Positions 28,598-55,925 of a stretch of 64,000 nucleotides of DNA are shown in pieces (position 1 is the stretch's first letter; each line of letters starts with the position of its first letter). A program made the position numbers and the translations under genes. Under the pieces are notes generated by a model. The model was not told where the DNA came from. It saw nothing but the letters and a program-made list of their open reading frames with translations, and searched no databases. Source of the stretch: Limonium bicolor. Its lineage: Eukaryota; Streptophyta; Magnoliopsida; Caryophyllales; Plumbaginaceae. The DNA is taken from assembly GCA_023374045.1 (NCBI GenBank), contig CM041776.1, forward strand, positions 135,721,296 through 135,785,295. The letters run 5' to 3'.

Positions 28598-28824
28598 TGA
28601 AATACCGGATTTCTTTTATAAAAACCCTAAATAATATTATTAAACACTAAATTAGTATATGGTATTATTTAAAAATTATTTAGGGGACTTCTTATATTAA
28701 ATTCTAAGTAATAATACAATTTAATTTAATTTATTATATGGTATTATGAATTTAATAACAAGATTTATAAGTCAATAAATCTTGGAAAAATTTCTAGACA
28801 CTCTAATTATATTATAAAGATTTT
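28598..28824 (+). repeat. LTR D, first 227 bp, related to LTR of element F
   Basis: Begins TGAAATACCGG. It shares ATTTATAAGTCAATAAATCTT and TATTATAAAGATTTT with F LTR 1 (33590-33655). It is interrupted by element E; the five bases before E are ATTTT, the expected left target duplication. Confidence 0.75.
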
Positions 28825-31800
28825 TGTAACACCCCTACTACACACTTAGCATTAAATAAAATCGCAGCGGAAAAACAACTAAACAATAACTAATCGATTC
28901 GGTGCTACAACGCCGTCAACCACCCACGTGGTTAACAAGGCAGAATAAATACAAGTGTACCGGTCTGATGATCAGACTCCCGAGCATTAGGTACTAACAA
29001 CCATATATATACATAACCAACATACCGAGTATTTAATACAAACCATCACTGTAAACTGTAAACGACCATCACTGTCATACAACGGTAACAAAATATAACG
29101 CCTCGGGAGCACAGGCGCATCCCGGGCTCAACATCCAAAATAGCCAAAAGTAGTCCTGCAGCCTAGAATCTATAGCCATTCCGCTTCCTCGATCCTCATC
29201 CTGCAGTAAAAATATGGAGCCCCCGAGGGGGTCAGCAACCCTTGGCTGGTATGGTTAACGCGCAGCCCATCGGCTACCGGGATACGCGCAACTAATTGTC
29301 ATGATGACATGGCATTCATTTTAACATATAACATATACATATGGCATAGCAACAATAATGCATAGCACCACATCACATACACAGTGAGTACACTTCCCAC
29401 AACAACAAACCAAGAAGGTTAATCAACATAAGAAGCCTAGAGAATGGTTCACCCTCATGTTAAGCTTGTTACACACACTCATTACCGTTCTGTTAGTCGA
29501 ACGAGTAACTTAAGTCACAGATGGTTCGGATATTGTGACCCGAACACACCACACAAACACATGTTCCCACTAAACCGATCATAAGTCAGAATAGGTAAGC
29601 TTTGGAGGAAGCTAGCGGGAGACCGAACGTCAAATAAAGGAGAACAATCTTAACATCATAAGAGTCGAATCTGATACAGATGTCTACTCTTAAACTTACA
29701 TGCATGACCGGACAACCGGATTCCTCACTCCCCAGTTAGCACTTATTAGAAGTTCAACAGTGGAACTTAACAAACAATTCACAAGCAAGTGGTAAGTCAT
29801 GTTAGACACACACAAGGGAAATGAGTCACGTCATAACATCACAATAGTATAAACAACTGTAAACTCATTACATGACTTAATCTTACAAGGTCATAAACAC
29901 ACAGAAAAATACACAACACACAAGCCGGTGTAAACCGGTAGGCAACAGACTGCAAGAAAACCATACCTTGGTCCTTGCTTCGATTGATTTCCACCGTAGG
30001 TCACCCCTATACATGTTTAAGAATGTCGGTTAATTAACTTACTTACCTTCAAATTCACTAAGTGTTTAACAAGGTTATATGACATGTTTTAATCCCCAAA
30101 CTTATCCTTGATTACCTTCATCATACCCCCTAGGGTTAACTACTTAAGCCACACTTTGTTTGTTTCTTTTTTTTACAAGTTTTGGTCCGACCGAACTTAC
30201 CGACCGACCTTACACAAGGTCGGTCCATTCCAGAACACACATTACCGTCAAAATTTCTGCTCCGACCGACCTTGCAAGTTCGGCCCACAAGTTCGGTCTA
30301 TTCCCGAGAGTTTTTCCCCCTTTGAAAACTCAGGCCCGACCGATCTTGGCAAGTCCGGTCGCAAGATCGGTCGATTCCCGAGACTCTCTTACGTACAAAA
30401 ATTTAGGCATGACCGACCTTGTAAGTTCGGTCCCAAGGTCGGTCTATTCTAGAGACTCAATCCGTACTAAAAATCCATGCCGGACCGACCTTGCAAGTCC
30501 GGTCCCCAAGGTCGGTCCATTCCAGAAACCATTTCTCGCAGGGTAAACTGGGCTCGACCGACCTTGCAGGTCCGGTCCCCAAGGTCGGTCTGCTCCAGAC
30601 CCTTGTTTCTAACTGCCCATTAAACTCCAAACTTCCCCACATATATCCTAGTATGTTCTAACCTTATTTGGGCACTTCAAACACACCTCAAGACCTCCAT
30701 TAAACTCCTTAAATCATTCACTAAATTCCTCCTCAAGCATTACACAATTTCTTATAAAAAAGGTTTACACTTGTAATGTTTTTCACTAAGTTTCTATGTG
30801 GTGTTTCATACCTACAACTTCCACTATTCCCAAATATTTTCTCACCACTACAACATCATCTCCCTAGCATCTTTTCTTCCTAAGCAAACTCCTTGAATAT
30901 CTCTACAAGCTTATAGCTCCTCCATGCAACACATCACTTCTTCTTATTCACCAACATTGCACAAGTCCTAAACACAATCTCACCATGATCTTGAACTATC
31001 CCAAAGCACTCATTTGCATTCTAAATCCTCTAAAACATTGCCTAAGTCCTTTTTACATCTTAGAATACCTTAATGCATGTTTCTTTCACTAGTAGAACAC
31101 TTAACCTTTCAAACACTTCCTTACTTCCCAACTCATTTTAAACACCTAAAACTTCTTATACATTATCTAAATTTCGACATGGGTTCTGCTAGAACATTAC
31201 CAAGCCAAAACACATTGTTTTCACCATTAAACATTCAAGAACACTTAAATCCATCAAAAACATTCATGTACACAAAACTTCACTCATTTAACACTACATC
31301 ACAATATAGTGCATAATTTAAATTGCTTGGCACTTAGGCCCTTAAATAACATGGCTCTTAGGCCCTTAAATTGCACAACCATAAACACTGAATTTCCACA
31401 ATACATTTGCCTTTGACCTGCAAATACACCCAACAATACATATGCCTCTTACTAAGCCCTTGAGAGCATTTTTCTAAGTCATTTACCATTGGCTCCTTAA
31501 TTAGTTTTAATAAGCAAACTAAGCTCATTTCTCCTAAGACATTACACTACATTAGGTTAGCATATTTACCTCTTTTCCTCACAACTACTTTCTTGTTTCC
31601 TTGTTTAAAAATCGGTAAGGATGTTTGATTCCTTGTCAACTTCTAAACAATATACAAATAATGAAATGAGTATACAAGCTTTATACTTCATCTCATTGTA
31701 AACCTTAAATACATAGATTGCCTTAGAACATTTAGATGATTGTTTTACCTTGGATATGAAAGAGAGTTTGGATATGTAGCAAGAGAGGACTCCACCAAGC

Positions 31801-33201: not shown

Positions 33202-33412
33202 CTAAGAAGTAAACAATGACGGGTACTTCACCTTCATCTTATCTTCCAGCTCCCAAGTGGCCTCCTCGACGTCCTGGTTAGACCAGAGAACCTTCACCAG
33301 TCTCACAGACTTATGGCGAGTGTCTCGAGTCTTAGTATCCAGAATCCGTACCGGAGTCTCCACTGATCGCATGGTCAGCTCTAAGGTTAGCCTTTCAGGC
33401 TGAAGCACATGA
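33202..33412 (-). pseudogene. pol: C-terminal end of E pol, chromodomain-like segment
   Basis: The frame reads LQPERLTLE, then RILDTKTRDTRHKSVRLVKV and LWSNQDVEEATWE, ending YPSLFTS. This is the typical C-terminal end of Tekay/Del-type polyproteins, where a chromodomain-like module follows integrase and may guide integration to heterochromatin. It is separated from the rest of pol (56692 onwards) by element F. The flanks join in frame if F and one CATGA are removed. The ATG at 33408 is created by the break and is not a start. Confidence 0.85.
33408..33412. other. Left target-site duplication of element F
   Basis: CATGA, repeated at 56692-56696 directly after the right LTR of F. Confidence 0.92.
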
Positions 33413-36392
33413 TGAAATACCCCTAAATTAATTTAAATTAATTTAGGGGATTTCTTTTATTAAAAATTAAATTATTATATGGAATTATGAGTATTGAATT
33501 ATTAATGAATTGTGAAATTTATTTAGGGGTTTCTCCTATTTAACCCTAATTATTATACATTATTATATAGTATTATGAATTTAATAATAAGATTTATAAG
33601 TCAATAAATCTTGGGAAAATTTCTAAACACTCCAAATATATTATAAAGATTTTAGGAAGTGTTGGAACATTGTTTTGAAACATAAAAGTCAATATAAAAT
33701 TCTAGGAACCTTAAAGCTTATTAAGCCTTGTTAGAGTTGACTTTTTGAGAATGGTCAAACCAGGCCATGAAACCTATACCAATAAATAGGTTATGAAAAA
33801 CCATGAAGATCGATAAAAAGAACGTTAAAAACGGATCATCCTAGCCAAAGTTATGATAAATTGAAGTTTAGAGCCAAAATTTTGAAGGATGCTGACGTGT
33901 CCAGGACACGTGTCGCGCCCAGTCAGCACCCAAGACACTTAATCGTTTGATTTTCCCAGCGTTTTGGCATGTCGAGGGTCGATCTTTAGACACCTATATC
34001 TTTTTCCCTACTCCACCATTTGGTATGCCGTTTGTTTCATTCGATTCTCCTATCTTTCCTCTTTCCAACCATTACTCACACACCATCTAACTCCTTCTAC
34101 AATGATCGGAAAGTTGATCCAAAGTTGGCTCCTCGCGATTGCGTAACCCAGAACTGCAGTTTTTCCTGGAATCGGGTAAACTTCGTCACGCCATAACTTC
34201 TTCATTTCTCGTCCAAATTTCGTGTTCTTTAGCTTGTTTTGAAGATCTCAAATCCCTCTATAACTTTCATGTTTATGGCCAAGGCTGATTCGCACTTGTT
34301 TGGGAGATAAATCTGTCTTAAGTTGCCCACTCGATCACGGCGGTAATTCTGCCCAGTTTCATCCCGAACCAACTAGGTAAACTCGGATCTTGTGAGATCT
34401 ATAACTTTCTCCCTAGTTCATCAAAATCAATGATTCTTCCACTAGCATCTAGAGTTACATGTCTAGTTTGGATTGTGATAGGTTCCATGAATCGAAGCTC
34501 TCTCAGTTGGTGCGAGTTGATTCGAGAAGGAGCTTACCTGAACCGCACATGAAATAACGATTTCCAGTTTTCCCGATTTGGTTTCGCCCCGTTAATGCAA
34601 TCCCGGTGAGTTTTTGATCAAATTGCTACGTTGTTGCCATTCTTAACTTCATTCTCGACCAAACCCACGTGGTAATTTATTCGATTATGCATTATATTGA
34701 GAGGAATTGGCGAAATCGAATTCGTAAACCCGAAACTCGACCTAACTTGAACCCAGATTGAATCTTTCGTAATACTGCATGAAATTGGGGAAATCGGTGT
34801 CAATAGATGCGTCTGGGGATTTCGAATTCAATGGAACAAGAACCACTCGATTTGGTTCTGGATTGAGAGAAAACGGTAGATTAGTACTCGGAATCGAGTT
34901 GAGTTCGATGATGAACTCGACAGTCAGGAGCCGTCCGATCTCAGTTAAAAGAAACGGACGGCCACGATTAAAACGTTTCAAAATATAAGTATAAGTTTTT
35001 AAATTATTTCCAGAATAAAGTCCTAACTTGCTAGATTTATTTAATGGCCTTCCCGAATGTATTTTGACTTGAAATTTTAACCATAGATTCCTTATAATGT
35101 CTAGTTTATTTTGATGTAAATTAATATGGGTTTTGAGTTTTTAAACATAAGTTATGATTTTTGCAAGTTACGAGAATTATGGAATTATTTGGGTAATTTA
35201 AAAAGATATTTTTATGCAATAAAAATTTTATAATATGTCTGAAATGTTATAGTTATTATATATAAATTTGGGAATTTTTGGACAAGGGTAAACAGGTTTT
35301 AAAATTTATGTTTATGGAATTTTCATAAGAATAACTTATAATATATGGTTTTTAATGTAACAAAAAAATTAAAGTATGGTTTGTTAATAAGCTTTTTAGG
35401 TTGGGGAAAATAAAGGAAACTAAATTAACATTTTATAACAGTATGTTTATAAATATTTTGGGTATTATCTTTTAGGTGAAGTAAAAGTTGTTTACACATA
35501 AATATACTCATATGAGAAGAATAAAATAGGAACTTATATTAAGTTGAGGTATTAAACTAAACTACATATTATTATTATGGAGGTTAATATGCTTAATTAA
35601 ACTAGGGTAAACGCTTTATTTTATAAACTATATATCAGTTGTGGATATGTCTAAAAGGTATTAAATAATTAAATACGATAAGAATTTCTTAAAGAATGTT
35701 TTGGATAAATTCTAAGGAAAATATAGGTATATATATAAATACATTAGAGGTAAATAAAGGTAGTAACATACCTTATGAGAACGTGTAAGAGGGAAAAGTT
35801 GGGATAAACCTTAATCATACGTGACAATTAAGTATATCAAATGTTACAGTGACATCTAGGTGGACTATTAGGGGAAATACATATCTTAAACCTTGAATAG
35901 GTGATGAAGTAAGATTAGCCAAGCGTAACCAAAGGGTTTAATTAAACTAAACCTATAATCAGGAGTGGGTAAATGGAATAAGTTAAGTATGCATTAAAGA
36001 TTTAATTACGAGATCTAGCCGGATCCTTAGGAGGGTGTAACTGTAAAACAAAACTATAGACTAATAGGAGTGGAGGATGTGTAGCGTTATAGTACCTTAA
36101 CTAATCAATGTTTGGAATACTTTAATTATAGGTGATTAGTGGAAGTAGTTCGCATTTTCAAGTTTGGTTACTGCTTCTACATATACCAGGTACGACTTCT
36201 CGTACTCAGATGCTTTAGGTGACGAATTTTATGGAACGTTTTGAGAAACGCTAAATGAGCATGAATGTATCTTGAAAGGAAATTGTTTGTGTGACTGACT
36301 CAGCCTGTTGTGACTAACTGAGCCTTGGATGTACAACTCACATGATCATTGGTTCCTTTAATCTGGTTATCTCATTAGATATTGACTGTTAA

Positions 36393-36463
36393 GGTTTACG
36401 CCTCTGCACTCTGTAGGACTGAGTGTTTTGGTATTGCACTTGTACAGTTAATAGTCTAGTGGG
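36393..36463 (+). repeat. Conserved ~70-bp block (F LTR 1)
   Basis: GTTTACGCCTCTGCACTC...; same block as in the interiors of A and B. Here the final palindrome reads TGCACTTGTACA. Confidence 0.8.
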
Positions 36464-36554
36464 AATGTGGGAAATGACAATCTTGGTATTGGATATGGAT
36501 TATTTCTATTAAGTGGTGCACTCACTTTTCACCGATGACCGAGAACGGGTCGGT

Positions 36555-36680
36555 GGCAGCGGAGGTCTGCTATACCTCGCCCCTTTGTGGCAACTGACAG
36601 CGGAGGTCTGTTTACCTCGCCCTTTGTGGCAACTGACAGCGGAGGTCTGTTTACCTCGCCCTTTGTGGCAACTGACTGGC
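36555..36680 (+). repeat. 39-bp tandem repeat, three units
   Basis: The unit starts CAGCGGAGGTCTG and ends CTTTGTGGCAACTGA. LTR 2 has four units (55926-56088). The reading frame over it is repeat-derived. Confidence 0.9.
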
Positions 36681-37293
36681 GGTGGGGGCCCATCTCTCCC
36701 AATTGGTTTTATTCCACTCTTGAGTTAAGGTTCTTGGGTCTTTCTAATCCTAATGGGAACTGAATCTAACTTAAGCAATGGATGTTCACTACTTCTGGCG
36801 TGGTTTCTTTTAAGTTGACTCGCTTTACTTCTTGTTTTTATCTCTATCCTTGACTTGATATCTTTGACTTGGTGTTTTGGTGTGCCTTGTTCTTCTGCTT
36901 TTGGTTCTAAGTGTTTGGCTTCATCTTATTGTTTATTTTTAGAGTTATGCTTTTAAACTGTTGTTTTGGAGAGTTGTACCAGTTCCATTCCAGGGAACTG
37001 ACTCCCCCTCCTGGGGTGGGCTGCTTGGTTTCATCTTGCAGGTACGAATTGCTATATAGGTAGCCACGAAGAGTATGAGTGTATGGGATGGGAATTAGGA
37101 ACTTTTGGAGAGCTATTGTATTTTGTTATTATTCTTTTATGTTATGTTTTCTCGAGTTCAGACCGTAGCATTTGTAATGTCATAAGTTGTAATTGGTGAG
37201 GTTTGGTGCCGGTGTTTGGAACCCGATGATCTGTAATCGCCTTAGTATTTTATTTCCGCTGCATTTATGATAAGTAGGGGCGTTACAGAAAGG

Positions 37294-37320
37294 TGGTATC
37301 AGAGCGTAGTTACGCTCTGA
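37294..37320 (+). other. Primer-binding site and hairpin of element F
   Basis: TGGTATCAGAGC (37294-37305) is complementary to initiator Met-tRNA, six bases after the LTR. TCAGAGCGTA (37299-37308) and TACGCTCTGA (37311-37320) form a perfect 10-bp stem with a 2-base centre overlapping the primer site. Confidence 0.88.
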
Positions 37321-37576: not shown

Positions 37577-38788
37577 ATGTCTCAAGGAGGAGGAAGAGGA
37601 GGACGCGGAGGAAGAGGAGGACGAGGAGCGGGACCCCCGGGTGGCTACGGACCCGACGCTGTTACCCCTGAGGTCATAGCTCAAATTGTGACCGCTGCAT
37701 TAGCTCAGCAGCAGGCTCAGATTCCTCAACCACCGCCACCACCACCCACGGTCCGCGAGAGTTTAACTGGTTGAAAGCGGTCAACGATCTTCGTCCCCCA
37801 GTCTACGAAGGCCAGCCAGTACCGAAAGCTCTGGAGAAATACATCGCTGAGATTCAAAGGCTTTTACCTCTCTGCATGTTCCAGCAGATCGCCAAGTGGA
37901 CATAGCGGCCTACTTTCTCCAAGGGCCCGCTCATCGATGGTGGCAGACAGCCAGAGCCGAGCTGACCGCCCAGGCGAACTTTGATTTCCAAGCTTTTCTG
38001 GTGGCCCTGAGAGCTAAGTTCTACCCATCCTACCTACAGAAGAGGATGAGAAGTGAATTTGAGCAGCTGAAGCAAGGGACTTCTTCTGTTGCTGAGTACT
38101 ATGACAAGTTTGTGGAGTTGCTTGCTGTCATTGGAGAGGGAGCTTACGCTCCAAGGTACCTGTGGATAAATTTCATACTGGCTTGACTTCAGGATCATGA
38201 ACATGATCGGTTCCACCAGGGGAAAGACTTTACAGGAACTAGCTGATGATGCAAACGACTGCGAAACCACCATTGCCTATCAGGATTCTGTGCTAGGCAA
38301 GAGGAAGGGTGATGCTGGAGGAGGTAGTGGAGGAAACTCTTCCCAGAACTATGAAAGGAAGGGCAAGTTCTACAAGGGGAAGAATGAAAAGGCCTAGTCC
38401 CTTCACACATTGATGCTGAGCCAATCCGCTCCCAGCCACCTAGTGGAAACCAACTCGTAAGAAGATACTTCTACAGGAAGTGTGAGAGGGACCATCCAGA
38501 AAGGAGTGTGACGGAACTCTGGTGACGTGTCACCATTGTGGCAGGAAGGGGCATAGATCCTTTGAGTGCTTCTTGAACCCGGATTCCAGGAACTACAAGC
38601 CACGCACCGGGTCAGCGACTAAAGCCCCAGCTACTAATACAAATGGAGGAGGAGGTAGAGGTGGCACCGGAGGTGCTAGACCATCTACCCATCGCCCTGC
38701 CCAGAACTACCCTCAGAGGCCAGGCAAAGCACCAGTTCTCAACTGGTGGACCGTGTCGAATCAGCGAGTGATGACCCGAGTTCACCTG
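37577..38788 (+). pseudogene. gag: gag of element F
   Basis: Starts MSQGGGRGGRGGRG, a Gly/Arg-rich N-terminus, then a Gln/Pro-rich stretch. The Gag core follows in shifted frames (DIAAYFLQGPAHRWWQTAR; EFEQLKQGTSSVAEYYDKF; then LQELADDANDCETTI). Two zinc-binding motifs follow: a degenerate first knuckle (first Cys replaced, YRKCERDHPE) and an intact CHHCGRKGHRSFEC. Frameshifts lie near 37770, 37870, 38160-38200, 38395 and 38515. At the place where B and E have intron 1 (TLQ|E) the sequence is continuous, and intron 2 is absent too. A candidate intron 38789-38967 would join it to the AlkB-like domain. Confidence 0.85.
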
Positions 38789-38967
38789 GTGAGGACTACT
38801 TTCCTACTGAAGAAGCTTAGACCTTCGTTTGTTTTCATTTCTTCAAATAATTTTTCCTCAGCATTGTAAAGGGATAAACTATAAATCCCTCTTTCTTTTA
38901 CATCTTGTGCTAAGACCAGTTTGAACCTTGACTTGTTTACTTAATGGCAACTGTTGTTTTCGTTCAG

Positions 38968-39727
38968 CTTTCGATATTTTGCTTTCCTGTATTGCCTATT
39001 TCCACACCCACCATTCCCTTTGAGGCCAAACCACACCCACCAGAAGTGTGAGATATTGAGACCTGGGATGGTCTTATTACGAGAATTTTTGACCCCAGCT
39101 GACCAATATGCATTGATCCTCAAGATCAGAGAATTAGGTGTGAAAGGAGGAAACTTTACACCCCTACCTTCAAGAACGGTGCAACCATGAAGGTGAAGAT
39201 CATGTGCCTAGGTAAGAAGTGGGACCACACCACTAGAAGCTATGAAGAGGTGGAGGTGCCACCAATTCCAGGAGAGTTGCAGACCATCATTGGAGCTGCA
39301 GTTAAAGCAGCCCAGGAATTGGAGGATGAGCCCGTCCCATACCTAACCTCAGACGTGTGCATCATCAACTTCTATGGGAAAGAAGGTAGGCTAGGAATGC
39401 ATCAGGATAGGGACGAGTCTCTAGAGTCCATCACCAGAGGAGTTCCAGTGGTGTCCATATCACTTGGAGACGACGCGGATTCCTATTTGGAGATCAGAAG
39501 AGAATGGATCTTGCTACAAAGATCCTCCTGAAGTCAGGTGATGTGCTGATATTCGGGGGTGCAGCCAGACTTATCTACCATGGGTGAAGAGAATTAAGCC
39601 CCACACAGCCCCCACATCCATCATCAACCAGACCCACATGAAACCTGGTCGTTTAAACCTGACCTTTAGACAGATCTGGCCTTGTAATTTATGCAATTTC
39701 AGCATTGTAATCATTAAATGCTTCTGA
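38968..39727 (+). pseudogene. AlkB-like Fe(II)/2-oxoglutarate dioxygenase domain in element F
   Basis: AlkB-family enzymes oxidatively demethylate nucleic acid bases using Fe(II) and 2-oxoglutarate. Recognisable segments in order: ILRPGMVLLREFLTPADQ, KIMCLGKKWD, VCIINFYGKEGRLGMHQDRD (HxD iron ligands), GVPVVSISLGD, SGDVLIFGGAARLIYHG (distal His), THMKPGRLNLTFRQ (the RxNxTxR motif), stop at 39725-39727. The closest family I recognise is the plant ALKBH1-like group. Single-base frameshifts near 39045, 39165, 39490 and 39585 break the frame, but no key residue is lost. It lies between gag and pol in the same strand and order as in element E. Candidate splice acceptor TTCGTTCAG at 38959-38967. 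Confidence 0.88.
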
Positions 39728-39850
39728 AGACCTTAATAAGAATGGGAATCTTATGAGTTTGTTGCGTCGTTGTAGGGGTCGGGAACTCGGAGATCAGATT
39801 GACTGTGTTGAACCAGGCTCAAGCGAAGAGCAATGGGATGGTCATCACAG

Positions 39851-39923
39851 GTATAACTACTAGCCTGACTCATTACCTTGGAAGAGATGCCTGAGAATCT
39901 TAGAATTTACTCTGTGTTTTCAG
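39851..39923 (+). other. Candidate intron before protease in element F
   Basis: GTATAACTAC...TGTGTTTTCAG, 73 bp, phase 1. Removing it joins VIT to GTFLINEV, matching the continuous ILTGTFPVNGV of element E (about 59790), where no intron exists. The ATG at 39878, which would start the long open frame, lies inside this intron and is therefore unlikely to be a real start. Confidence 0.75.
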
Positions 39924-42234
39924 GCACGTTCTTAATTAATGAGGTGGAAGCCACTGTTCTGTTTGATTCTGGAGCCTCCCATTCATTCATATCCCAGGCA
40001 TTCCATGCTAAGATAGATGCTCCTACAGAAGATATCCATGACTGCTCAGTCTTATTGCCATCCAGAGAGTTAATCAAGTGCAGTAAGCAATGTAGGAACT
40101 TGAACATACACATCAAGGGAGCAGACTTCCTCTTTGATGCCATTGTCTTCCCTGGCATGGGGTTTGATATAATTGTAGGCATGGACACACTACAGCGATA
40201 CAGAGGTAGGCTACACTGTGCAGAGCATCGCCTCCTCTTGAAGTCAGCTACAGGGATCACAGTATCATACCGAATGCAGCCCAAACAGCCGACTGTGAAG
40301 GTTGTATCGGCGTTATCCCTGATGAAGGAGGTGTCCAAGGGAGCGACCGCCTACTACTGTTATGCCCAGGACCTGAGAACAGATCCAAAGTTCAAGAGTG
40401 ACGTACCCGTTGTGTCGGAGTACCCCGACGTTTTTCCGGAGGAGTTACCTGGACTACCACCATTGAGGGAGGTTGAGTTCAACATCGACCTCATACCTGG
40501 TACAGGCCCGATTGCCAAAGCACCATACCGGATGGGCCCTGCGGAGATGGTGGAATTGAAGAAACAACTGCAGGAGTTACTAGACAAGGGTTTCATCCGA
40601 CCCAGCGTCTCACCTTGGGGTGCTCCTGTGCTGTTCGTCAAGAAGAAGGACGGAAGCATGAGATTATGTATTGACTACAGGGAGTTGAATAATGTCACGA
40701 TCAAGAACAAGTACCCACTGCCCAGGATCGATGACTTGTTCGACCAGCTGAGGGGAGCTAAGGTGTTCTCTAAAATTGATCTGCGTTCCGGGTATCATCA
40801 GATAGCTGTAGCTGAGACAGATATAGAGAAGACAGCCTTCCGGACCAGATACGGCCACTATGAGTTCACAGTGATGCCGTTTGGACTGACCAATGCACCG
40901 GCGAGATTTATGGATTTGATGCAGAGAGTCTTCCAAGCCCAGCTAGATAAGTCAGTGGTCGTATTCATAGACGACATTCTGATCTTCTCCAAGAGCAAAG
41001 AGGAACATGAGCAGCATTTGAGGACAGTCCTGCAGACTCTGAGAGAGAGGCAACTCTATGCCAAGTTCAGCAAGTGCGAATTCTGGCTGGACAAGGTATC
41101 ATTTCTTGGTCATGTGATCTCAGCCGAGGGAGTTTCAGTGGACCCAGCTAAAATTGAGGTGGTAAAGAGCTGGCACAGACCTCGCTCAGTGACTGAGATT
41201 CGGAGCTTCCTTGGGTTGGCTGGCTATTATAGACGCTTTGTGAAGGATTTCTCCAGGCTAGCCAAGCCCTTAACCTCTCTGATGAAGAAGGATAGTCCGT
41301 TTGTATGGACAGAGGCATGTGAGGTCTCCTTTCAGGCACTGAAGGATGCTCTGACCACAGCTCCAGTATTGGTGATCCCCGAGGGAAATGAGGGATTCGA
41401 GGTTTACTGTGATGCTTCAGGCAAGGGGATCGGTGGAGTATTGATGCAAAATGGCAGAGTCGTGGCTTACGCTTCTCGACAGCTGAAGAAGCACGAAGAA
41501 AATTATCCCACACATGACCTTGAGCTCCTCGCCATAGTTTTTGCCTTGAAGATCTGGCGACACTACCTGTATGGAGCCACGGTCCGAATTATGACAGATC
41601 ATAAGTTTGAAATACATCTGGACCCAGAAGGAGCTGAACTTGAGACAGCGACGGTGGATCGAGCTACTAGCTGATTATGATATCGACCTCCAGTACACAG
41701 AGGGTAAAGGTAATGTCGTGGCAGACGCTCTGAGCAGAAGAGCATATTCACTTCTTGCTCTCATAGAGACGACCACGATAGCTGAGGAGGTATATGCAGC
41801 TCAGGATAGTGATGTGTATCTACAGGGTATCAGGCATAAGTTAGCAGATGGGTTGACTGATTGTCTGAAGTATGACTACGAGCTAGACAGCGAGGGACAC
41901 CTTCGAGTCAGAGGCAGACTCTGTGTTCCTCAGGATGCGACAGAACTTCAGACCAAGATTCTCTCTGAAGCTCATTCCTCTACATTGTCACAGTACATCC
42001 TAGGAGCCACCAAGAATGTAGCAAGGATTTAAAGAAGCTATTCTGGTGGAGCGGGATGAAGAGGGATGTAGCAGGCTTCGTCTCCGATGTCTCACCTGTA
42101 AGAAGGTGAAGTTCGAGCAATCGGCGACCAGGAGGCCAGATTCAGTCATTACCGGTACCGTGCTGGAGTTTGACGAATTAGTATGGATTTTGTGGTCGGT
42201 CTCCCCTCCAGCTAGAGGTGGATTGAAACACAAT
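39924..42234 (+). pseudogene. pol: pol of element F, part 1: protease, reverse transcriptase, RNase H, integrase start
   Basis: Protease with [12 protein letters not shown] near 39960; a linker; reverse transcriptase from about 40400 with [20 protein letters not shown] and the catalytic FIDD in [14 protein letters not shown] near 40945-40990; RNase H from about 41390 ([14 protein letters not shown], then [20 protein letters not shown]). One open frame runs to 41674, but it leaves the correct frame near 41604, where a 2-base loss disrupts TDHKSLKY; the continuation ([18 protein letters not shown]) is in another frame to 42032. Integrase zinc-binding remnants (SEAHSS, FWWSGMK, CLTCKKVKFEQ) follow to 42150. 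CACTA2 interrupts integrase at 42235. Confidence 0.93.
42232..42234. other. Left target duplication of CACTA2
   Basis: AAT, repeated at 51355-51357. Removing the element and one AAT restores an open integrase frame (KHN|WVIVDRLTK). Confidence 0.85.
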
Positions 42235-42239
42235 ACTAG

Positions 42240-42525
42240 TAGGAAAGGACCTACCGCAGCGGTGTTGGTACCTATGGCAGCGGTTGAAAACCGCTGCGAT
42301 GGGTGCGCTGCGCTAGGTGAACCTCTACCGTAGCGGTGTAGAACCGCTGCGGTAGGTACTCTATCGCAGCGGTTGTTAGTTAGAACCGCTGCGTTAGACC
42401 TTTTTTTTTTTAAAAAAAAAACCACTATCGCAGCGGTTGTTAATAAGAACCGCTGCGATAGACCTTTTTTTTAAAAAAAAACCACCTATCGCAGCGGTTC
42501 TTATAAGAACCGCTGCAATAGGTTA
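42240..42525. repeat. Left subterminal hairpin array of CACTA2
   Basis: Repeated TATCGCAGCGGTT...AACCGCTGCGATA hairpins separated by poly-T/poly-A runs. At least six arms pair locally. This is the probable binding region for the TNPA-type protein. Confidence 0.88.
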
Positions 42526-42825
42526 TTTTTTTTTTGTTTTTTCCATTCCAGCCTACAATTCTACCACATACACACCAAAATCAATCAAACATGTGAAGAT
42601 ATAGCAATAAACAATGCCACCACAGTGGGGCATTAGATCAACCCATTCACCATATAAATGCCACCAAAACTTATCTACGGCAATAATCCACTTACATTTA
42701 CAAATTTCACCAAATTAATCAAATATCAACAAAATCTTTACAGAAACGACAATTGTTTCATGAGAATTTCAAAATCATCCTACTCAATCCTACCAAACCC
42801 TAGATGCAACCTACATTAACGCTCA

Positions 42826-45800
42826 TGAATTCTGCCCATTCTTCGAGCACCTCGTTATATGTCCTTCGTTGTAACCGTCTACCAACTCTTCAAAAGCCTT
42901 GGAATTACACACAAAAAGAAATATGATTAGTTGCTAATAATACTTGAGTTTAAGAATCAATGTTAAAAATTATCTACAAAACCAAAAAATTTCGAGAATG
43001 CTACTTACCAGGTCTAGAGACTTCTCTGGCAAGAGTCTCGTCCCGCTATCAAGTCACTCATAAACCGAATGACATAGTAGCCACATTCCGAACCTCCCGG
43101 CTGCTGTGGACACTGCACATGTATATACGTACATATTCAAATCGATTTAACACATAAATATAATACTGTTCCTATTTAAATCTAATGAACATATTACAAA
43201 ATTTGAATAAGGACTACAAAAATACCTTGACTACATTCCACGGAATCTTCTTAAGTCTCTCTCCTCGGACTTGCGTCATTACAGATACAAAGGCACTAGA
43301 ATTCATACGCACAGAAAAAGTAAAAGTTATCAACTGGATGATTAAGAAATAACTAAAAATTGATAATTAATCAAGTTAAGTAAATCATCACCTCATCAAC
43401 ATGTTATATATAAGTGGCCTCTTGGGACGCAGAGATGCTGAGTCAAGCTGCAGGACTCTTGGGCTTTTATACATAGAACGAGCAAAGACCAGTGTCGGCT
43501 GTTCATAGATTACAATACAGGCAGAACTTAATTCAATCAATTACATAATACAAATATCATAATTTTTAAACTAACTTAACATTAGATAAAATTCTTACCC
43601 TTGATGAAGAGGCAGCATGATGTAAGATTTATCTGTAACTGCACACGCATGTATCACATTCGACAAGTACTGGACCAACGCTTGGGGGTCAGATCCCATA
43701 TTAGCTTCGGAACAGTAGTCAGGGCATAGGAACCCGAAACTACTATTCTCATGTACTTGGACCGCCTTGTCATCAATAAACTGCACACAATATAAAGAAA
43801 CAAATATTATGAATTTAATTTTCAAATATACAGAGTAAAATGTGTACAACATTTGCTAATTACTCACATGCAAGCCGATTTGAGAATCGACGCAGTCAAC
43901 CAATCCTTCGTGAACAACTCCACAAAATCAATAAGATAGATTTCAAAACTCTGAGCGCCTCTGTAGTGAAAAAGATCCGGTCTTGGTTCCATTGTAACCG
44001 AATCTCTTCCTGGCGGCGTCATCAGTAGTGTGGAGTGTAACAGTTTCAGCATGGGGGGTAAGGCATTCAGAACCGCCGGTTGTAGCAAATTCGATCTCAT
44101 CACAACTCTAGTCGCGGATGCCATCGAAGGATTAGCTGGTGGAACAACAACTCTCTTTCCTTTTGCCTTATCAGAATTTGATTGAATGTGTTCCTAATAT
44201 ATTAATTTAATAAGTATATGTTTCTACTCTAGGATATGTTAAAGAATAAGTTTTTTCATGGGGGTACCTGCTGCTCCCCAAGCCTAATCAATCTACAGGG
44301 CCACTGTACTACATTGGATTCAGCTTGACGAAGGGTGGATATGTCTGCACTGGGCACCGGTATCTGACAATCCGCGTAAGCAGGCGCGTAACCTTCAACA
44401 AGCACCCGGCCATGGTACTCTCGGAGCGCTGTATTCCTCACGGTGTCTCCAGCACAAGACTTGAAAAGTTTTCCCCACCCTACTTCGACTTCGTCAACGC
44501 CAATCACTTGGAGCAATGTGCAGTCAATTGGTTGCTAAATTTTCAAAATTAAAGATTTTTGATGCAGATAAACAATTGTATAATTTGTTTTTTTTTGTAT
44601 TTGTAGTTAACATGTTGTTCTAACCTTGAGAGATGAATATGGAAATGGGTGACGGAGTGAACGTGAACACTACTGGGAGGCACTGCTGCGGGCTCTGATG
44701 CTTGTGGCTGATCTGGCGGTCTAGAAACCTCCTGACTCATCCTCTCAGATCGGATCATCTCCATAGCTTGAGCGATCGACTACTGAAACTCACTTCGTAG
44801 TCGCTGCTCGAGCTCCGCATTCTGGCGTAAGTGCTCCTCATATGAAATGCTCCCTCCTGCACCGTGTCTCGACCAGGATTCCGAAGGCTTGGCGTATACC
44901 GACATGACCGCCAAAGCCTACTGCACGACCCGGATGATCCTTCTTCCCGAGAGCGCGGGAAAGTGGATCATCCTGCCTAACGGGCTGCCAAGACCTGGGT
45001 GATCTGGGAGCTTAACTCTTCCTGTTATGGAGTTTAATAAGTCAATAAGGATTCTTCGGTTTATTTAACTGCTATTGTTACTCTATAAATATAATAAACA
45101 TTTTTTAACTAAAAATCACTTACCATTTGGTTGATGACCTCTCTCGTGGCGTCATCATACTCAGCAGGTGCCGCCGGATTTGAAGGTTTCTTCCGTCGAC
45201 TTAAATCCCAAACCTTCATCCTTCGTTCGCTGACATTCGAGCCAGCTGGCAGCAACCCTCTTTCTCCCACTGCGGCACACGCTGAGCAATACTTGTACTC
45301 CCCATGTGGTGGGGGTAACGATTCTTTTTTTTGCATTTTGTTGTTGTTTCTCACGTATAGCCTACATATAAGTATGAAAAGACAAATTATGCAAATAATA
45401 TATGAAAAGACGAATTAACCAAATGAACTGTAAGGACACTTTAAACATTTATCATACAAAAGAACAACTACTACTGTTAAACTCACCTTGAACTCAGGGG
45501 TCAGACGCTTCGCAACAAACTCATTCCACTGCTCTTCAGTAATACCATCGTATTTTTGCCACGGTGGTCTCCGATCATCCACATCTTCACCTTCTGCCTC
45601 CTCTATCTCTGCGGGCTCCTCACAGTAAATGTACTGCCTCGTGAGCAGAGATCTGAAGTCTTTGAATTGTGTGGCAATCCCCTTCATCACATCATCCTTC
45701 AGAGATGGATCTATACAGAATCGGTCCTATATGCACAAAAAAAAATGGATTAGTGTAAAAAAATAACTATATAAATCTAAAAACAAACTATTAAGTGTAA

Positions 45801-46333
45801 CAAATACCTTCAGACGCTCAAATATCTGCTCCTTCAACGCCTGAGGCACTTGCTTCCAATTGTGGTTTATATTGAAATATGTACTCACCAAATGCCTGGC
45901 TAGAGCAGTGTGTAATCATTTTTCCATGTACCGGTGGGCTGATTAAATTCATTGAACTCCAAAGGCTTTGTCGGGGGGCCTCTATTTGCTTTCAGCCCAC
46001 GGGTTGCCCCTCGTTTTTTGGGTTTCTTGAGTGGGGGAGGAGCAACTTGTATCTCCTGTCCTTCCTGTGAAGGACCTGCTGTCTCGGTCTCTGTGGGGTG
46101 GTCTGTACGTCTGCTTTCTTTGATTTCTTTTTACCACCTCGTGTGGTGCGTTTTGCCGGTCTACTATCCCCAGTCAGGAGCAGCTGTCCTATAGGATCAT
46201 CAATAGGATCATCATCCACTGAGGAAAAAAAACACACACACATTAGATCAATATTCATGGAACGATGTATAATTGCAAAAATAAACATAAAACAATTCAT
46301 GGAACGATGTATAATTGCAAAAATAAACAACAA
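42826..46333 (-). pseudogene. CACTA2 accessory gene: TNPA-like, DUF8039 and Ulp1-like protease parts
   Basis: Read right to left. 46333-45992 is Lys/Arg-rich (KKKSKKADVQTT). 45690-45415 has GITEEQWNEFVAKRLTPEFK, typical of the plant transposase_24/TNPA domain. 45354-45109 continues it (YDDATREVINQMV). 44516-44256 resembles DUF8039 (CQIPVPSADISTLRQAESNV, VQWPCRLIRL). 43852-43040 has Ulp1-type C48 protease segments: GFLCPDYCSE, YIMLPLHQG, RVLQLDSASLRPKRP and CPQQPGGSECGYYVIRFM, with the expected catalytic Cys in ECGYY. The last exon is about 42826-42910. Introns with GT-AG-like borders separate the parts; exact exons and the start codon are unresolved. The catalytic His-Trp of the protease is not visible. 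The Ulp1 part may be inactive. Confidence 0.75.
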
Positions 46334-46405
46334 TAATACGAATTATATAATGTACTTTCAACCAATGGTGTTACCTAGACATAGTAACATATCATGATCT
46401 GTTTT

Positions 46406-48913
46406 CTACCCAAACCCCTCATTATGGTCTGATCGAGCGTAGATGGTCTGAACATCATCATTTTGTAAATCATCAGTTGAATCATGCAACCCTGTATGCA
46501 ACGATACAGGTTCATCTATCATCTCATTATCATCATCGTCGTTGTTTTCATCCTCAAACAACACCGGTCTTCTCCCTGGAAGAACAACATGCCATCTACT
46601 AGCTTTTGGGTCTTCAATATAAAAGACCTGGTCACAGTCTTTACCCAACACAAACTGATCTTCCTTATTAGTTGTAACACGTGAAAGATCAACCAAAATA
46701 AGTCCTTTATCATTTTGGAGTCCATGTCGGTTGTCCACCCAATTGCAGCGGAACAATAGAAACGAATCAATGTGATAGTTTAGTTCCCATATGTCCTCTA
46801 TCACACCATAATACCAACTACTACTGCTCATTGGTTGAACCTGGTTACCTAGACCATATTCAGTCACCGATGCTTCAATTTTTACCCCACTGTTCTGATG
46901 TATTGATTTAGCATCTTGGCGTGCAGTGTAGTATGTGCATCCATTAATGTCATACCCTTCAAACGATACAACATCTGTTCCAGAACCAACAGCTAGACAT
47001 CTGATTTCTTCACTGACATCTTCGGGGTTCAATGAAGCTTGCTTAAAACATATTCCTTAAACCATTGGACGAATACTCGATTTTGTTCTTTTTTAAGCCA
47101 GATACGGTTTTGGTAGGTTTTGTCGACTCAACTCAGCAATGTGAATATCGAAGTAGGGTTCAACAACCTCAAGTGTTGTAGTACAAACAAATGTGCCTGA
47201 TTAATAAGATCACGAGAGATACGAACAACCTTTTTGCCAATAACTCCTTTACCCTCAAATCTACCATGGTGACGTGGTTTGGGAATACCAATTGACTCTG
47301 CATCGTTCAAATAACTTGTTACGAATTCTGTGACTTCCTCAGTCACTGTTGCTTCGATGATACTGCTCTTCTGGTCTATATCTGTTTTTCATTCTACCCT
47401 TCAGAATCCCCATAATCGTTCGAAAGATACATGTAACGTAAGTAAACCGGACCACAATATTTGATCTCTCGGACAATATGCACTACTAAATGCACACATA
47501 TAAACATTTTTGCCGCAGTGCTTCAGACGATCTGAACATGTGTCATCCTCACATACCGGACACGCTTTGAATCCTTTCACCGAGTATCCTGACAAGTTCC
47601 ATAGGCAGGAAAGTCGTTAACAGTACAGAACAAACATCGCCTTCAGTGTGAAATTGTTCTTTCGCATGAGCATCATATACCACTGTCCCTTCATTCCACA
47701 ACAACTTCGATCATCGATCAGTGGTGCAAGATATACGTCAATGTTATGACCAGGTTGCTTTGGACCGGAAATTAGGAGTGATAACATAATGTATTTTCGT
47801 TTCATGCACAACCATGACGGTAAATTATAGATCACTAGTAGCACCGGCCAAGTGCTGTGCTGACTACTCAACGTGCCATACGGGTTCATCCCATCGGTAC
47901 ACAATCCAAGTCTCAGATTCCTATCCTCATCCCCAAAATGATGTTGAATTTCTGTTGATATTTCTCCACTGAGGTCCGTCTGCAGGATGTCTTAATTTTT
48001 CATCAATTTTTCTACCTTCCGCGTGCCATCGAAAGTTCTTCGCATCTTTCGGGTTTGGCAAACAACCGTTTGAATCTAGGAATTATCGGCAAGTACCACA
48101 ATAATTTAACTGGACGTTTTTTTTCTGAAAGGAGGAATCCTCATCCTTGTCCTTGTACCGGGACAACAAACATTTAGGACACTTGTCTAGATGTTCGTAT
48201 TCACCCCTATAAAGCACACAGTTATTTGGGCAAGCATGAATCTTTTTATATTCAACCCCCCATTGGACACATCATTTCTTTGCCTCGTAGGTGGATGTAG
48301 GAAGACCATTCTCATAAGGAAGCACTATGTATCATCGCTCTAGAAATGACGTGAAAACACTTGTCACCAACTCCATATTTCCACTTTAGTTGAACAAATA
48401 AGTACAGCAGTCAATTTTGTGTATTTAACGCATGAAGGGTACAAAGGGTGTCTTTGATGCGTCCAACAATCTTTGATACTCTTCCGGCTTATCGACAAAA
48501 GTATCGGCAACATTTTCTAACATTTCATCCATTTGTCATCATGGTGAGTGGTCACACTGTCATCGAATCCTGAATCACTTAACGGTACCGACTCATTGAT
48601 GTTATTGAAGGTATGGGCGGTACTTGCGTAACGTGGATCATGAGCACTTGATGATGTTGAAGCACTAGCTGCAACAGTTTCTCCATGAAAATTCCATCTT
48701 CTGTAATGTGGCATGAATCCACGGGACTTAAGATGAAATCTAATTTCCTCAATGTCTTCATATTTCCTTACGACCCCACAGTCAACACCAAGGACATGAA
48801 ATCTTGTCCGCCTTTGTTATGTCCTTGTGTTGCACTGCCGCTTTGAGAAATTCTTTCAGCTTCTCATCAAAATAGTTATCCCTTCGATAACCGTACATCC
48901 AGTCACGCTCCAT
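46406..48913 (-). pseudogene. CACTA2 transposase, tnp2 type, with internal deletion
   Basis: Start at 48913: MERDWMYGYRRDNYFDEKLK, a transposase-associated N-terminal domain, followed by KADKISCP. The tnp2 family signature follows: CTDGMNPYGTLSSQHSTWPV with YNLPSWLCMKRKYIMLSLLI (47904 leftward), then SGYSVKGFKACPVCEDDTCS (47595-47536). Next expected is the remainder of the catalytic domain and DUF4218, but only a short C-terminal piece is present (FVTSYLNDAESIGIPKPRHH, 47346 leftward), so a large internal segment is deleted near 47350-47400. The C-terminal DUF4216 domain is well kept (SSSWYYGVIEDIWELNY, LFRCNWVD; 47032-46406). Frameshifts occur near 48780, 48520 and 48000. It would cut and paste the element by binding its ends; this copy is defective. 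Confidence 0.88.
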
Positions 48914-49549
48914 TCTATATGTGAAAACAAAACAAATGTTTAGATTGATTTGTCTTTCAGTTTCGTCTGCATTTATATATGGAGCATGTTTCTACTGGAT
49001 GTACGGTTGCAACAAACTCAGCACTACTCTATGGTTACAACCTAACTAACGTAGCCTAAGTACTCTAACTTCACAACGTAACTAATCTAGCCTTATTCTA
49101 ACAGTTCTAACACATTAATTTAACTTCAACAAATCATTGCATTATTAAACAAAAAATAAAGTTTAATTACTTACTTGTTTTAAGGTTGTACAGAGGGGGA
49201 AGCTAGGACACTGCTTTGGTGATGGGCTGGGAAAGTACTGGTACAAATCCAATAGCAGATTCAGAAGACCTGACAAAGAAAAGTAAAGATTGTTATACAC
49301 AAATAACAAATAAAATTAATTAATAAGACTATTACGATTCTAGAAAAATTCGGCATGACCTTTGCGTAATCGTGTTAATCCCATGCTATCATTAAGCATT
49401 CACCAACATCTTATTTACCACGACAAATAAATTCCACAATTGGCAGCAACCATTCGCAACTCATCAATATTAACCACAACCACTTTTCGCAATAATTAAT
49501 TAAACAAACAAAGAGAAAACATAGATGAAGATGTTACCTTTTCACTCTT

Positions 49550-49865
49550 ACTTCACAGCAGAATAAATAAGGAAGAAGAAGTACAGACCACCCCAATTAC
49601 TGCAGACATCAGGGAAGCAAGGAAATAATATTAGGGGGGGCAAGAAATCCATTATTATAAGCATTATCATATTAAGAAAATAAAAAAGAGAAAAAAGATA
49701 GATGATATTATTACCTTTTAGCTCATGCTGCACAACAGAAGCAATGAGGAAGAAAGAGACACAGAGACCACCCCAATTACTGTAGACAGCGGTGAAGCAA
49801 GGTAATAATATTAGGGGGGGCAAGAAATCCATTACTATAAGCATTATCATATTAAGCACGTATAT
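49550..49865. repeat. 180-bp tandem duplication in CACTA2
   Basis: Two diverged copies; ATTAGGGGGGGCAAGAAATC occurs at 49630-49649 and 49810-49829, 180 bases apart, with flanking similarity (ACCACCCCAATTACTG, AAGCATTATCATATTAAG). A minus-strand frame runs through both and shows the repeat but no protein family. Confidence 0.85.
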
Positions 49866-50262
49866 GAGGAAAAAATGTATCATCGTTTTTGTCTCCATTA
49901 TGGTCGTATAAAATACATTATTAATTAATGAGATTAGAGAGTGTGACTGAATTGGTGACTGTAAAAATAGTCACTGCAAATTCCATAAAAATTAATAAGA
50001 TAACTTATAGCTATGAACTTAACTAATAAAAAGTATATTTTTTTAAAAATTAATTAAGATGATTTATTAGTAACTTATAAATTAAACTAATAAAAAATAT
50101 CTTTTAAATAAAGTTCCCTATTTTAACAAACATTGCCAGGAACAAACTATATTTTTTTATCGAGTGTACTTGTTTATTTCATTTTTGTAAAATGTTAGAC
50201 ATGGAGGACGTGAGAAGCTGTGACTCTCCATCAAATAGCTGATTTGGCCTTTTCTACACACA

Positions 50263-50315
50263 GATATATATATATATATATATATAATATATATATATGA
50301 TATATATATATATTA
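50263..50315. repeat. (TA)n microsatellite
   Basis: Interrupted AT-dinucleotide run inside CACTA2. Confidence 0.9.
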
Positions 50316-50865
50316 TATTTTCACATCAAAGAAAAGAATCCAAGCAACTAATTAATTAAAGTAGCTTTGTCACCTACATAAGATAATATCTTAGGATCAA
50401 AACATGTTTGTACTCGGTTGTCTTCAGGCTGATCATTTCAACGCGACTCCTAAATGACCAACTTGATATCATGTTTGATTATGTTTCAGGTCAAGTCCAG
50501 CGGAAGAAATATTGATACATAACTTACTTATCGAACATTAGTAGCTTTTTCCAAAAATAATCTCTAGTAATATATTACTGAAGAAACAAGGATGCATTAT
50601 CACTAGCATCATTGTAATTGTGACGCAATTTCCCGTACCGTTTTTTACAACTTTGGGTTGTATGCAGAGGGCACAAACAACAAAAAATATCAACTCAGGC
50701 ATTTTATCGAACACCTTATATGCACAACTATTTATACTTGTTCAATAATCTATCTATATTCAAATTATGCACACACAACTAAACTAACAATCAATAACTA
50801 TATTACAACAAGTTATTCAATCAACAAGACAATAATTAACATAATTTCGAAGTTAGAAATCGGAT

Positions 50866-51110
50866 TCGAACCTAGGGTTCGCGCAGCAACACGTACGACG
50901 CCTGCGACCTGGACTTGGACGGCGAGGGCAACGGCGACGGCGACGGCGGCGGGGGTGGCGCGCGCGAAGGAGGAGAAGGTGGCGGTGGTGGCGGGAGTCG
51001 CAGGCGTCGTGAGAATCGCCGTCGTCTTCTTTGCTTCGTTCTCGCGATTACAGAGAAGAGAATGAGAGGAGAAGAGAGAAGATGAACTGGAGCGATTTGG
51101 GGGAAATAAA
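50866..51110 (-). promoter_or_regulatory. GC-rich presumed 5' region of CACTA2 genes
   Basis: Strongly GC-rich compared with its surroundings (GGCGACGG-type runs at 50920-51010), adjacent to the right terminus and upstream of both leftward genes. A promoter or first exon is likely from position; no TATA box is obvious. A similar, less GC-rich stretch sits in CACTA1 at 2190-2500. Confidence 0.4.
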
Positions 51111-51116
51111 AGAGCT

Positions 51117-51345
51117 CTATCGCAGCGGTTCCTACTAAGAACCGCTGAGATAGGTCTGCAAAAAAGACCTATCTCAGCGGTTCTTAGTAGGAACCGCTGC
51201 GATAGAGAGTTTTTTTTTTTAAACGACCCTAGCGCAGCGGTTGTTATTAACAACCGCTGCGATAGAGTTGTTTTTTTTAAATGACCCTAGCGCAGCGGTT
51301 GTTTTTACAACCGCTGCGGTAGGGGCGCTGCGATAGACCATTTCT
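51117..51345. repeat. Right subterminal hairpin array of CACTA2
   Basis: Hairpins built from CTATCGCAGCGGTT and its complement, e.g. 51117-51149 and 51163-51206, and again at 51228-51262 and 51287-51320. The motif is the same as at the left end. Confidence 0.88.
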
Positions 51346-51354
51346 GTACTAGTG

Positions 51355-52330
51355 AATTGGGTGATAGTGGATAGGTTAACTAAGACAGCTAAGTTCATAC
51401 CTATCAAGGACACATGGAAGGTGCCCAAACTAGCTGAGGTGTTCACCACAGAGCACATCCGGGACATGGGGTACCGAAGACGATCGTCTCCGATCGTGAT
51501 GCACGTTTCCTTAGTAGATTTTGGCGTCAGGTGCAGGAGGCATTTGGTACTCAGTTGCGACTTAGCATCAGCCTTCCACCCTACAAACAGATTGGCAGAC
51601 CGAGAGGACGATTCAGACACTGGAAGATATTTTGAGAGCGGTCGCCTTATACTATCAGGGGAGTTGGATAGAGCGTCTACACTTTTAGAGTTCCTACAAC
51701 AACTCCTATCACTCGTCTATCGGCATGGCCCCTTTCAGGCTCTGTAGGGCAGGCCGTGCCGGACACCTTATCATGGAGTGACCCTGCTGAGACAGTTTTG
51801 ATTGGTCCAGAGTATATTCAGAGACTACAGGATGACATCAGAGTTATTCAGCAGCACATGAGGGCAGCACAATCTAGGCCAGAAATCTACGGGGATCAGC
51901 GTACCAAAGAGCTTGAGTTTCAGATCATGGATATGGTTTTCCTACGAGTGTCTCCGATGAGAGGTATCTTCAGATTTGGGATGAGAGGAAAGCTAAGCCC
52001 TAAGTATGTTGGTCCGTACAGGATTACGGAGCGCGTGGCCCGCAGCGTATCGACTAGACCTACCAGCGAGTTGGGGAATGGTACATGACGTGTTTTCATG
52101 TATCGCAGCTGAGAAGTATGTACCTGATCCTTCTCACGTGCTACAGCCAGAGAGATTAGAGATTGAACCTACATTGAGATATGAGGAGACCCCCCATTCA
52201 GATCCTGGACACGAAGGTCCGGGCAACGAGAGGCTGATCAGTCAAGCTAGTGAAGGTTCTTTGGGAGCATCATGGGTTGAAGAAGCTACTTGGAGACTGA
52301 GGACTCTATGAGAGTGAAGTACCCACACCT
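51355..52330 (+). pseudogene. pol: pol of element F, part 2: integrase core to C-terminus
   Basis: Continues integrase right after CACTA2 (WVIVDRLTKTAKFIPIKDTW), then frames shift near 51470-51620 where the second catalytic Asp and the conserved TDGQ.ER region are scrambled. The C-terminal parts are recognisable: [49 protein letters not shown] and EEATWRL, matching the end of E pol. It finishes about 52310-52340, just before the second polypurine-like tract. Confidence 0.85.
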
Positions 52331-52403
52331 ATTCCCATGATATTTCCTTGTATTCTTGCCTTTACTGGGTTCTTGTTCATAGCGGTACAGGGCGTACCTT
52401 GCT

Positions 52404-55834: not shown

Positions 55835-55925
55835 AATGTGGGAAATGACAATCTTGGTATTGGATATGGATTATTTCTATTAAGTGGTGCACTCACTTTT
55901 CACCGATGACCGAGAACGGGTCGGT

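Follow-up and report, generated by a model that had tools for sequence, protein, structure and literature searches.

An ALKBH1-like AlkB domain between gag and protease in a Ty3/gypsy lineage of Limonium bicolor

Why would an LTR retrotransposon contain an AlkB-type dioxygenase domain? This question is raised by a 64,000-nt stretch of the Limonium bicolor genome (hereafter the window), in which the initial annotation described such a domain inside a Ty3/gypsy element, F, and suggested that a host gene had been captured. The overall reading that we propose, and regard as likely, is that a Ty3/gypsy lineage captured the mRNA of a host ALKBH1 gene and keeps it as a 3′ exon for a working demethylase, with splicing choosing between Gag-AlkB and Gag-Pol. 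Counting against this proposal, both AlkB copies of the window are frame-broken.

Element F presents the LTRs (approximately 3.9 kb each), primer-binding site, target-site duplication and gag-PR-RT-RH-INT order of a Ty3/gypsy retrotransposon (Table 1). The 5-bp target-site duplication, CATGA, is found at 33408-33412 and 56692-56696. The primer-binding site TGGTATCAGAGC follows the 5′ LTR at about 37294-37305, and we take it to be of the initiator-Met tRNA type. Within gag, a capsid piece (37851-38183) matches PF03732 (E 1.1e-15) and is followed by a zinc-knuckle piece (38486-38866). The two LTRs differ by only 10 mismatches over 3828 aligned sites, which corresponds to an insertion age of about 0.1 million years at a substitution rate of 1.3e-8 per site per year, yet they are separated by 66 gap runs. 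In contrast, a tandem duplication at 13.4-19.7 kb presents 1 gap run and 33 mismatches, and this difference points to uneven consensus quality. Several other features were observed around F. Its pol is interrupted within the integrase region by an insertion that we label CACTA-like from its ends (42228-51347, ends approximate); the minus strand of this insertion carries DUF4216, and its subterminal repeats measure ~60 bases. The intron-like piece of the F protease leader is absent from the second element of the window, G, and from relatives in Cuscuta and Ipomoea. Another element, at 13193-25154, has LTR-like repeats and a gag that is part of a 3.1-kb tandem duplication; tblastn found neither an AlkB nor a pol match in it.

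Table 1. Position, strand and supporting evidence of the features of elements F and G in the window.
Feature	Position	Strand	Basis
Element F, Ty3/gypsy LTR retrotransposon	33413-56691	+	LTR pair by self-blastn; edges read
F 5′ LTR	33413-37287	+	self-blastn
F gag	37851-38866	+	last exon ends at predicted phase-1 donor near 38789
F AlkB exon: leader (FDIC in sibling copies) and ALKBH1-type 2OG-Fe(II) dioxygenase domain, with frame changes	38968-39724	+	Pfam, 5xeg matches, acceptor score
F pol start: protease, reverse transcriptase, RNase H	39776-41671 (open frame 39869-41671)	+	PF08284, PF00078, PF17919, PF17917
Predicted GT-AG intron, 72-73 bases, in F protease leader	39851-39923	+	protein contiguous there in G, P0149, P0226
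F integrase and chromodomain-like end, past nested CACTA-like insertion	51337-52345	+	tblastn to G; PF00665 weak, E 0.026
F 3′ LTR	52774-56691	+	self-blastn
G LTR copy	28821-30221	-	partner 62603-64000 runs past window end
G integrase chromodomain-like C-terminus, far side of F	33205-33408	-	PF00385, E 3.1e-5
G pol: protease, RT, RNase H, H2C2, integrase; cut by F insertion	56692-59863	-	Pfam, tblastn
G AlkB exon: leader FNIC, HQDKDE, YHG, NLTFRQ, then stop; frame changes and one in-frame stop	60783-60047	-	Pfam, 5xeg
G gag zinc-knuckle exon	60937-61288	-	ends at predicted phase-1 donor near 60927
G gag capsid piece	61904-62341	-	tblastn to F gag

The Pfam scan matched PF13532 (2OG-FeII_Oxy_2) in element F at 39103-39528 (E 1.6e-16) and again, in another frame, at 39468-39584 (E 2.3e-8). 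The scan gave a weak match for the C-terminal piece of the domain (39542-39724, E 0.051) and none for the N-terminal piece (38945-39187); these two pieces match rice ALKBH1 (PDB 5xeg) with E-values of 8.4e-6 and 2.6e-4, respectively. The structure 5XEG is named as that of rice ALKBH1 in a figure legend (PMC8118384). It is the top solved relative of all four AlkB pieces of F, which jointly span its residues 7-230 of 231. Reading the sequence directly, we located the HQD motif at 39400-39408, the distal His of YHG at 39579-39581 and RxNxTxR at 39650-39670. The E-values, together with the further places found in the genome, exclude chance as the source of the AlkB match. The earlier description of a full-length AlkB domain with these three signatures is thus well founded, although it did not stress that the window's own copy is broken: the domain is complete but spread across several reading frames, so that F itself gives no protein from a single ORF. 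The start given in the initial annotation, 38968, coincides with the predicted splice acceptor of the AlkB exon.

Comparisons with other proteins place this domain near ALKBH1. At E up to 1, every solved relative of the F and G pieces was either rice ALKBH1 or a chain bearing the name AlkB or ALKBH1; by this measure, the two domains are nearer to ALKBH1/AlkB than to ALKBH5-type proteins. Residues H159, D161, H219, R243, N245, T247 and R249 are invariant across 31 aligned rows (seven element copies and 24 database AlkBs). When a 142-aa piece of F was searched against the protein database, all organism-named matches among the best 120 of 446 were bacterial AlkBs; a longer protein query from the same region returned no match (226 candidates). 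We discarded the reading that this database holds no plants, since plant pol proteins were found there; the seed-word rule of the search probably hides plant ALKBH1. Scans of viral contigs found no relative.

F has inserted into a second, diverged element of the window, G, which lies on the minus strand: G pol stops at the edge of F and resumes with a chromodomain-like end at 33408-33205. The PF00385 match of this end scores 24.2 bits, below the cut-off of 25.1, and the corresponding region of F matches that of G by tblastn. G also carries an AlkB domain, located as in F between gag and protease. PF13532 was detected in two of its four pieces, clearly in one (60127-60378, E 2.4e-19) and weakly in another (60545-60796, E 0.12), whereas the Pfam scan of the other two was negative. 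All three pieces that were run against 5xeg matched it (E 1.7e-22, 8.7e-11 and 0.004), and the remaining piece could be aligned with F and rice. The LTR pair of G, which lies partly off the window, presents 14 mismatches over 1393 sites, in line with G being older than the element that sits in it. In G, only ~300 bases separate the H2C2 piece (57736) from the point where the RNase H match stops (58053), leaving little space for a second RNase H.

We then considered how widespread the domain is. The assembly of the window (2.92 Gb) was searched with three AlkB queries: the F piece, the rice domain and the G piece. Each query gave 150 scored matches out of 150, and these fall at hundreds of positions beyond the window, on all eight large contigs. 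Approximately 120 of the 150 rows for the rice-domain query have no internal stop (counted by eye), but the scored rows are the best candidates and are biased towards intact copies. First-look candidate counts, 24,931 to 49,098 per query, are loose and do not measure copy number. Of the first 55 loci that we examined, 40 have a CCHC zinc knuckle upstream, 46 have a protease motif downstream and 34 have the two together. This agrees with the gag-AlkB-protease order, on one strand, that the initial annotation had described for F, and shows that the domain is not confined to a single element copy. Neither of the two findings that the annotation had named as speaking against it, a gene fragment confined to one copy or the lack of an AlkB profile match, was thus observed.

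It is very improbable, to the point of near exclusion, that the domain is an assembly artefact or a host gene collapsed into repeats. An excess of short indels, seen in the LTR pair of F and in G-like copies (a median of 13 gap runs per pair), does suggest consensus errors. However, the matches occupy all eight large contigs, the element order is retained in the 34 loci with both flanks, and the intron-split host gene (locus L084) is a separate place. We also considered whether the frame changes of F are themselves assembly noise. This is at best partly right: two of them recur in other F-like copies (e.g., L003 and L006), which implies that copies with a broken AlkB have spread too. Perhaps intact copies help such broken copies in trans.

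Some copies of the domain are open. HQD and NxTxR lie within a single long ORF in 19 of the 55 loci, with the N-terminal strand out of frame in 10 of these 19, and 15 out of 61 loci have an AlkB frame that stays open all the way from LRPGM to the stop. All five intact AlkB ORFs that were scanned cover PF13532 positions 1-194 or 2-194 of 194 (E 1.6e-43 or better), and an AlphaFold2 model of one intact ORF has a mean pLDDT of 84.3 and a pTM of 0.84. Loci were also picked by a G-like protease alone, a sample that covers G-like copies: the AlkB leader and HQD were present in 16/16 and NLTFR in 12/16, but AlkB was uninterrupted in just six of the 16.

Selection across copies was assessed at the codon level. 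The amino-acid identity of F and G is 55.9% for AlkB (202 residues), as compared to 47% for the protease part, 39% for gag and 82% for RT. By codon position, AlkB identity is 0.66, 0.76 and 0.34, synonymous sites being saturated. Under a null model without selection (random substitutions on F, 1000 runs), amino-acid identity averaged 31.6% and never exceeded 40.1%. The pN/pS of AlkB between F and G is 0.31, close to the value of 0.34 for protease-RT-RNase H. This codon pattern indicates that AlkB is old in the lineage and under purifying selection, unless F and G each captured a conserved host gene. Within a third subfamily, L031 and L033 compared with L034, L035 and L039 yielded dN of 0.044-0.067 and dS of 0.47-0.70 (dN/dS 0.088-0.105); these loci were top protein-score matches, so that conservation is partly built in, whereas the F-G comparison is independent of that choice. 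Closer pairs are looser, above all those with L040 (dN/dS up to 0.92 at dS 0.044). L059 and L060 differ by 14 synonymous and 0 replacement changes, a comparison biased by the choice of rows with near-equal protein scores. The AlkB of this element family is under purifying selection.

These patterns bear on the possibility that AlkB is a functionless fragment of a host gene carried along inside the element. The broken frames of F and G, and the fact that copies with a broken AlkB have been amplified as well, are what such a passenger would lead us to expect. On the other hand, the strong codon constraint seen in the F-G comparison and inside the third subfamily, the catalytic motifs retained in the aligned copies and the open ORFs of part of the copies all argue for a domain that is maintained, and we consider a functionless passenger highly improbable.

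The origin of the domain can be traced through the host gene. At L084, we found a multi-exon host ALKBH1 gene with the leader FDICPP, whose reading is interrupted twice within the domain, once after EQV (before VKII) and once after HQ (before DRDE), in the manner of introns. Neither interruption occurs in the element copies, which start one or two codons ahead of F(D/N)IC(Y/F)P, with the same start in all three subfamilies. An intron-split host domain and unsplit element copies starting at FDIC indicate that a processed host ALKBH1 mRNA was captured. Another place in the assembly, G000:C3:133828654-133828818, has the same score as the host gene and may be a duplicate of it. The element AlkBs share the whole catalytic domain, HxD...H and RxNxTxR, with OsALKBH1 (5xeg) and are 52-58% identical to it (15 loci); F and G lack a 9-residue loop of the rice protein. 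In our tree, the host ALKBH1 pairs with that of rice (98/98), separate from the 11 element AlkBs, which indicates that no sampled subfamily was copied recently from today's host gene. The best match to 5xeg, and the FDIC leader and domain shared with L084, support the suggestion that the domain most resembles plant ALKBH1 and derives from a captured host gene.

Related elements might have captured ALKBH1 several times at the same place. When distant bacterial outgroups were included, the F-like branch fell outside the host and the other elements, such that rice and host ALKBH1 lie between F-like and other copies (89/88; rice alone 92/87), as several captures would produce. A single element clade was nevertheless not rejected (p-AU 0.118 and 0.123), and host and elements split at 100/99 without the distant bacteria. 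Moreover, the insertion point and the FDIC start are identical in the three subfamilies, and F and G are sisters in a quick RT tree with database hits (111 columns, SH-aLRT 91). Our reading is a single capture of ALKBH1, and we view repeated captures as unlikely.

The location of the AlkB exon suggests how it might be expressed. In the AlkB-less relatives P0166 (Spinacia) and P0226 (Ipomoea), the zinc knuckle directly joins the protease leader, and it is this junction that the AlkB exon occupies in F, G and the third subfamily. No AlkB motif was found in the best 120 of 8000 scored pol relatives, all of them under 1053 aa, 19 of which have a protease motif with more than 150 aa upstream. The GC content of the window copies is 0.32-0.40 in the AlkB flanks and 0.46-0.48 in AlkB; in one sibling per subfamily, the values are 0.32-0.37 and 0.42-0.48 (one side only for the G-like sibling). 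Splice sites were scored against the general consensus. A phase-1 G|GT was identified at the gag end of the one copy checked in each subfamily (CCTG|GTGAGG, CCAG|GTACC and ACGG|GTAAGC). Among 11 loci with the gag end located, our script detected this donor in seven and missed it in four. In 69 of 72 loci, the AlkB leader follows an in-phase AG, which occupies either of two positions (background 13.6%; missing in three), but these loci are related and represent three independent cases. One copy of each of the three subfamilies combines a phase-1 gag donor with an in-phase AlkB acceptor. The pol-side acceptor is of phase 1 by inspection, although the script found none in the G-like copy. From the phase-1 donor and the two acceptors, we infer two alternative 3′ exons, one yielding Gag-AlkB with its own stop and the other Gag-Pol.

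A comparison of sibling copies provides additional evidence of splicing. The gag of the sibling L058 contains two GT-AG pieces (68 and 69 bases) that are missing, with exact boundaries, from F, and L057 lacks the first of them and has kept the second. We therefore dropped the view that F gag never had introns. The exact loss in F indicates that the RNA of this family is spliced, and partly spliced RNA appears to be the source of new copies. Because F lost its gag introns but retained AlkB, an AlkB-bearing and otherwise spliced RNA must have been reverse transcribed, and AlkB is not spliced out every time.

The same signals could mean that regulation came first, the AlkB exon and its stop acting as a splicing switch that sets the ratio of Gag to Gag-Pol while the enzyme is secondary. 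The exon's own stop, the phase-1 signals and the AT-rich flanks in three subfamilies would all suit such a switch. It would, however, need neither HxD, the distal His and RxNxTxR nor selection on the protein across the whole domain, and we consider this alternative improbable.

We therefore return to a captured gene kept for its enzyme, a model whose splice junctions are read from sequence. A chromodomain-bearing Ty3/gypsy lineage would have acquired, at the junction of gag and protease, the processed mRNA of a host ALKBH1 gene. The captured gene would remain a separate 3′ exon encoding a working ALKBH1-type 2OG/Fe(II) nucleic-acid demethylase. The phase-1 donor at the gag end would join either the AlkB exon or the pol exon, and unspliced RNA would yield Gag alone. 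Gag-AlkB could then enter the particle, where it would meet RNA, RNA-DNA hybrids and single-stranded cDNA. There, the packed AlkB may strip methyl or alkyl marks off the element RNA or single-stranded cDNA, thereby evading host marking or damage. AlkB is probably kept to protect or unmask the element's own RNA or DNA.

An AlkB domain in a plant LTR element has a precedent. The Gypsy_Pa_2799 family of Phalaenopsis is a Ty3/gypsy family with an AlkB domain (2-ODD, PF13532) derived from a cellular gene, whose protein demethylates m6A RNA in vitro and has been proposed to target element or cellular RNA; the domain was seen in no other plant of a 121-genome screen (PMC9289625). This was the one primary report among the matches listed in our full-text literature search for AlkB in LTR elements, which covered few subscription papers and preprints. 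The initial annotation, which knew of no AlkB as a standard Ty3/gypsy component, needs amending in that such a case was already published; the lineage of the element and the class and position of its AlkB are different here. Both systems are Ty3/gypsy elements with a PF13532 AlkB of cellular origin. Gypsy_Pa_2799, however, is a Tat/Ogre element with a dual RNase H, one gag-pol ORF and an ALKBH5/9B-type AlkB in a separate ORF2. The Limonium elements do not share this class and placement of AlkB: they present a chromodomain-like end (just under the Pfam cut-off) and an AlkB of ALKBH1 type, as an exon between gag and protease. The primer-binding sites differ as well, being presumably of tRNA-Met type in Limonium and of tRNA-Arg type in Gypsy_Pa_2799.

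We hold a more specific scenario only tentatively, at somewhat less than an even chance: AlkB, as an ALKBH1-type demethylase of adenine in DNA and RNA, would be a long-standing alternative 3′ exon of a chromodomain Ty3/gypsy lineage, with one donor at the gag end choosing between Gag-Pol and Gag-AlkB and the packed eraser cleaning RNA or cDNA during reverse transcription, and it would represent a second independent AlkB capture by plant LTR elements, of a class unlike that of orchids. Two Ty3/gypsy lineages with two AlkB classes would imply that plant retrotransposons have repeatedly needed to erase methyl marks. A genome carrying such copies by the hundreds, if not more, would also make the methylation marking of retroelement nucleic acids by plants directly testable. 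Plant retroelement RNA is reported to be restrained by m6A and, in the case of ONSEN in Arabidopsis, to be released by ALKBH9B (PMC12786077). The ALKBH1 class hints at cDNA or RNA-DNA hybrids as targets besides RNA, since 6mA in single-stranded DNA and at R-loops is a substrate of the rice enzyme (PMC10469495).

Other mobile elements offer partial parallels. Alphaflexiviridae, Betaflexiviridae and Closteroviridae are likewise RNA-based elements with their own AlkB, although these AlkBs, cited in the orchid report, are domains of RNA virus proteins (PMC9289625). Fungal DNA transposons with TET/JBP genes similarly encode a dioxygenase directed against nucleic-acid methylation, but they are DNA transposons and involve methylcytosine and another enzyme family (PMC12730594). 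In Ogre and EVD, introns also tune gag and pol expression, and the accounts of these introns in the two sources mention no alternative exon that would encode an enzyme between gag and pol (PMC6317226, PMC8892269). The predicted choice between Gag-AlkB and Gag-Pol would, if true, represent an unusual mode of expression, and the precise loss of gag introns constitutes natural evidence of splicing in this family.
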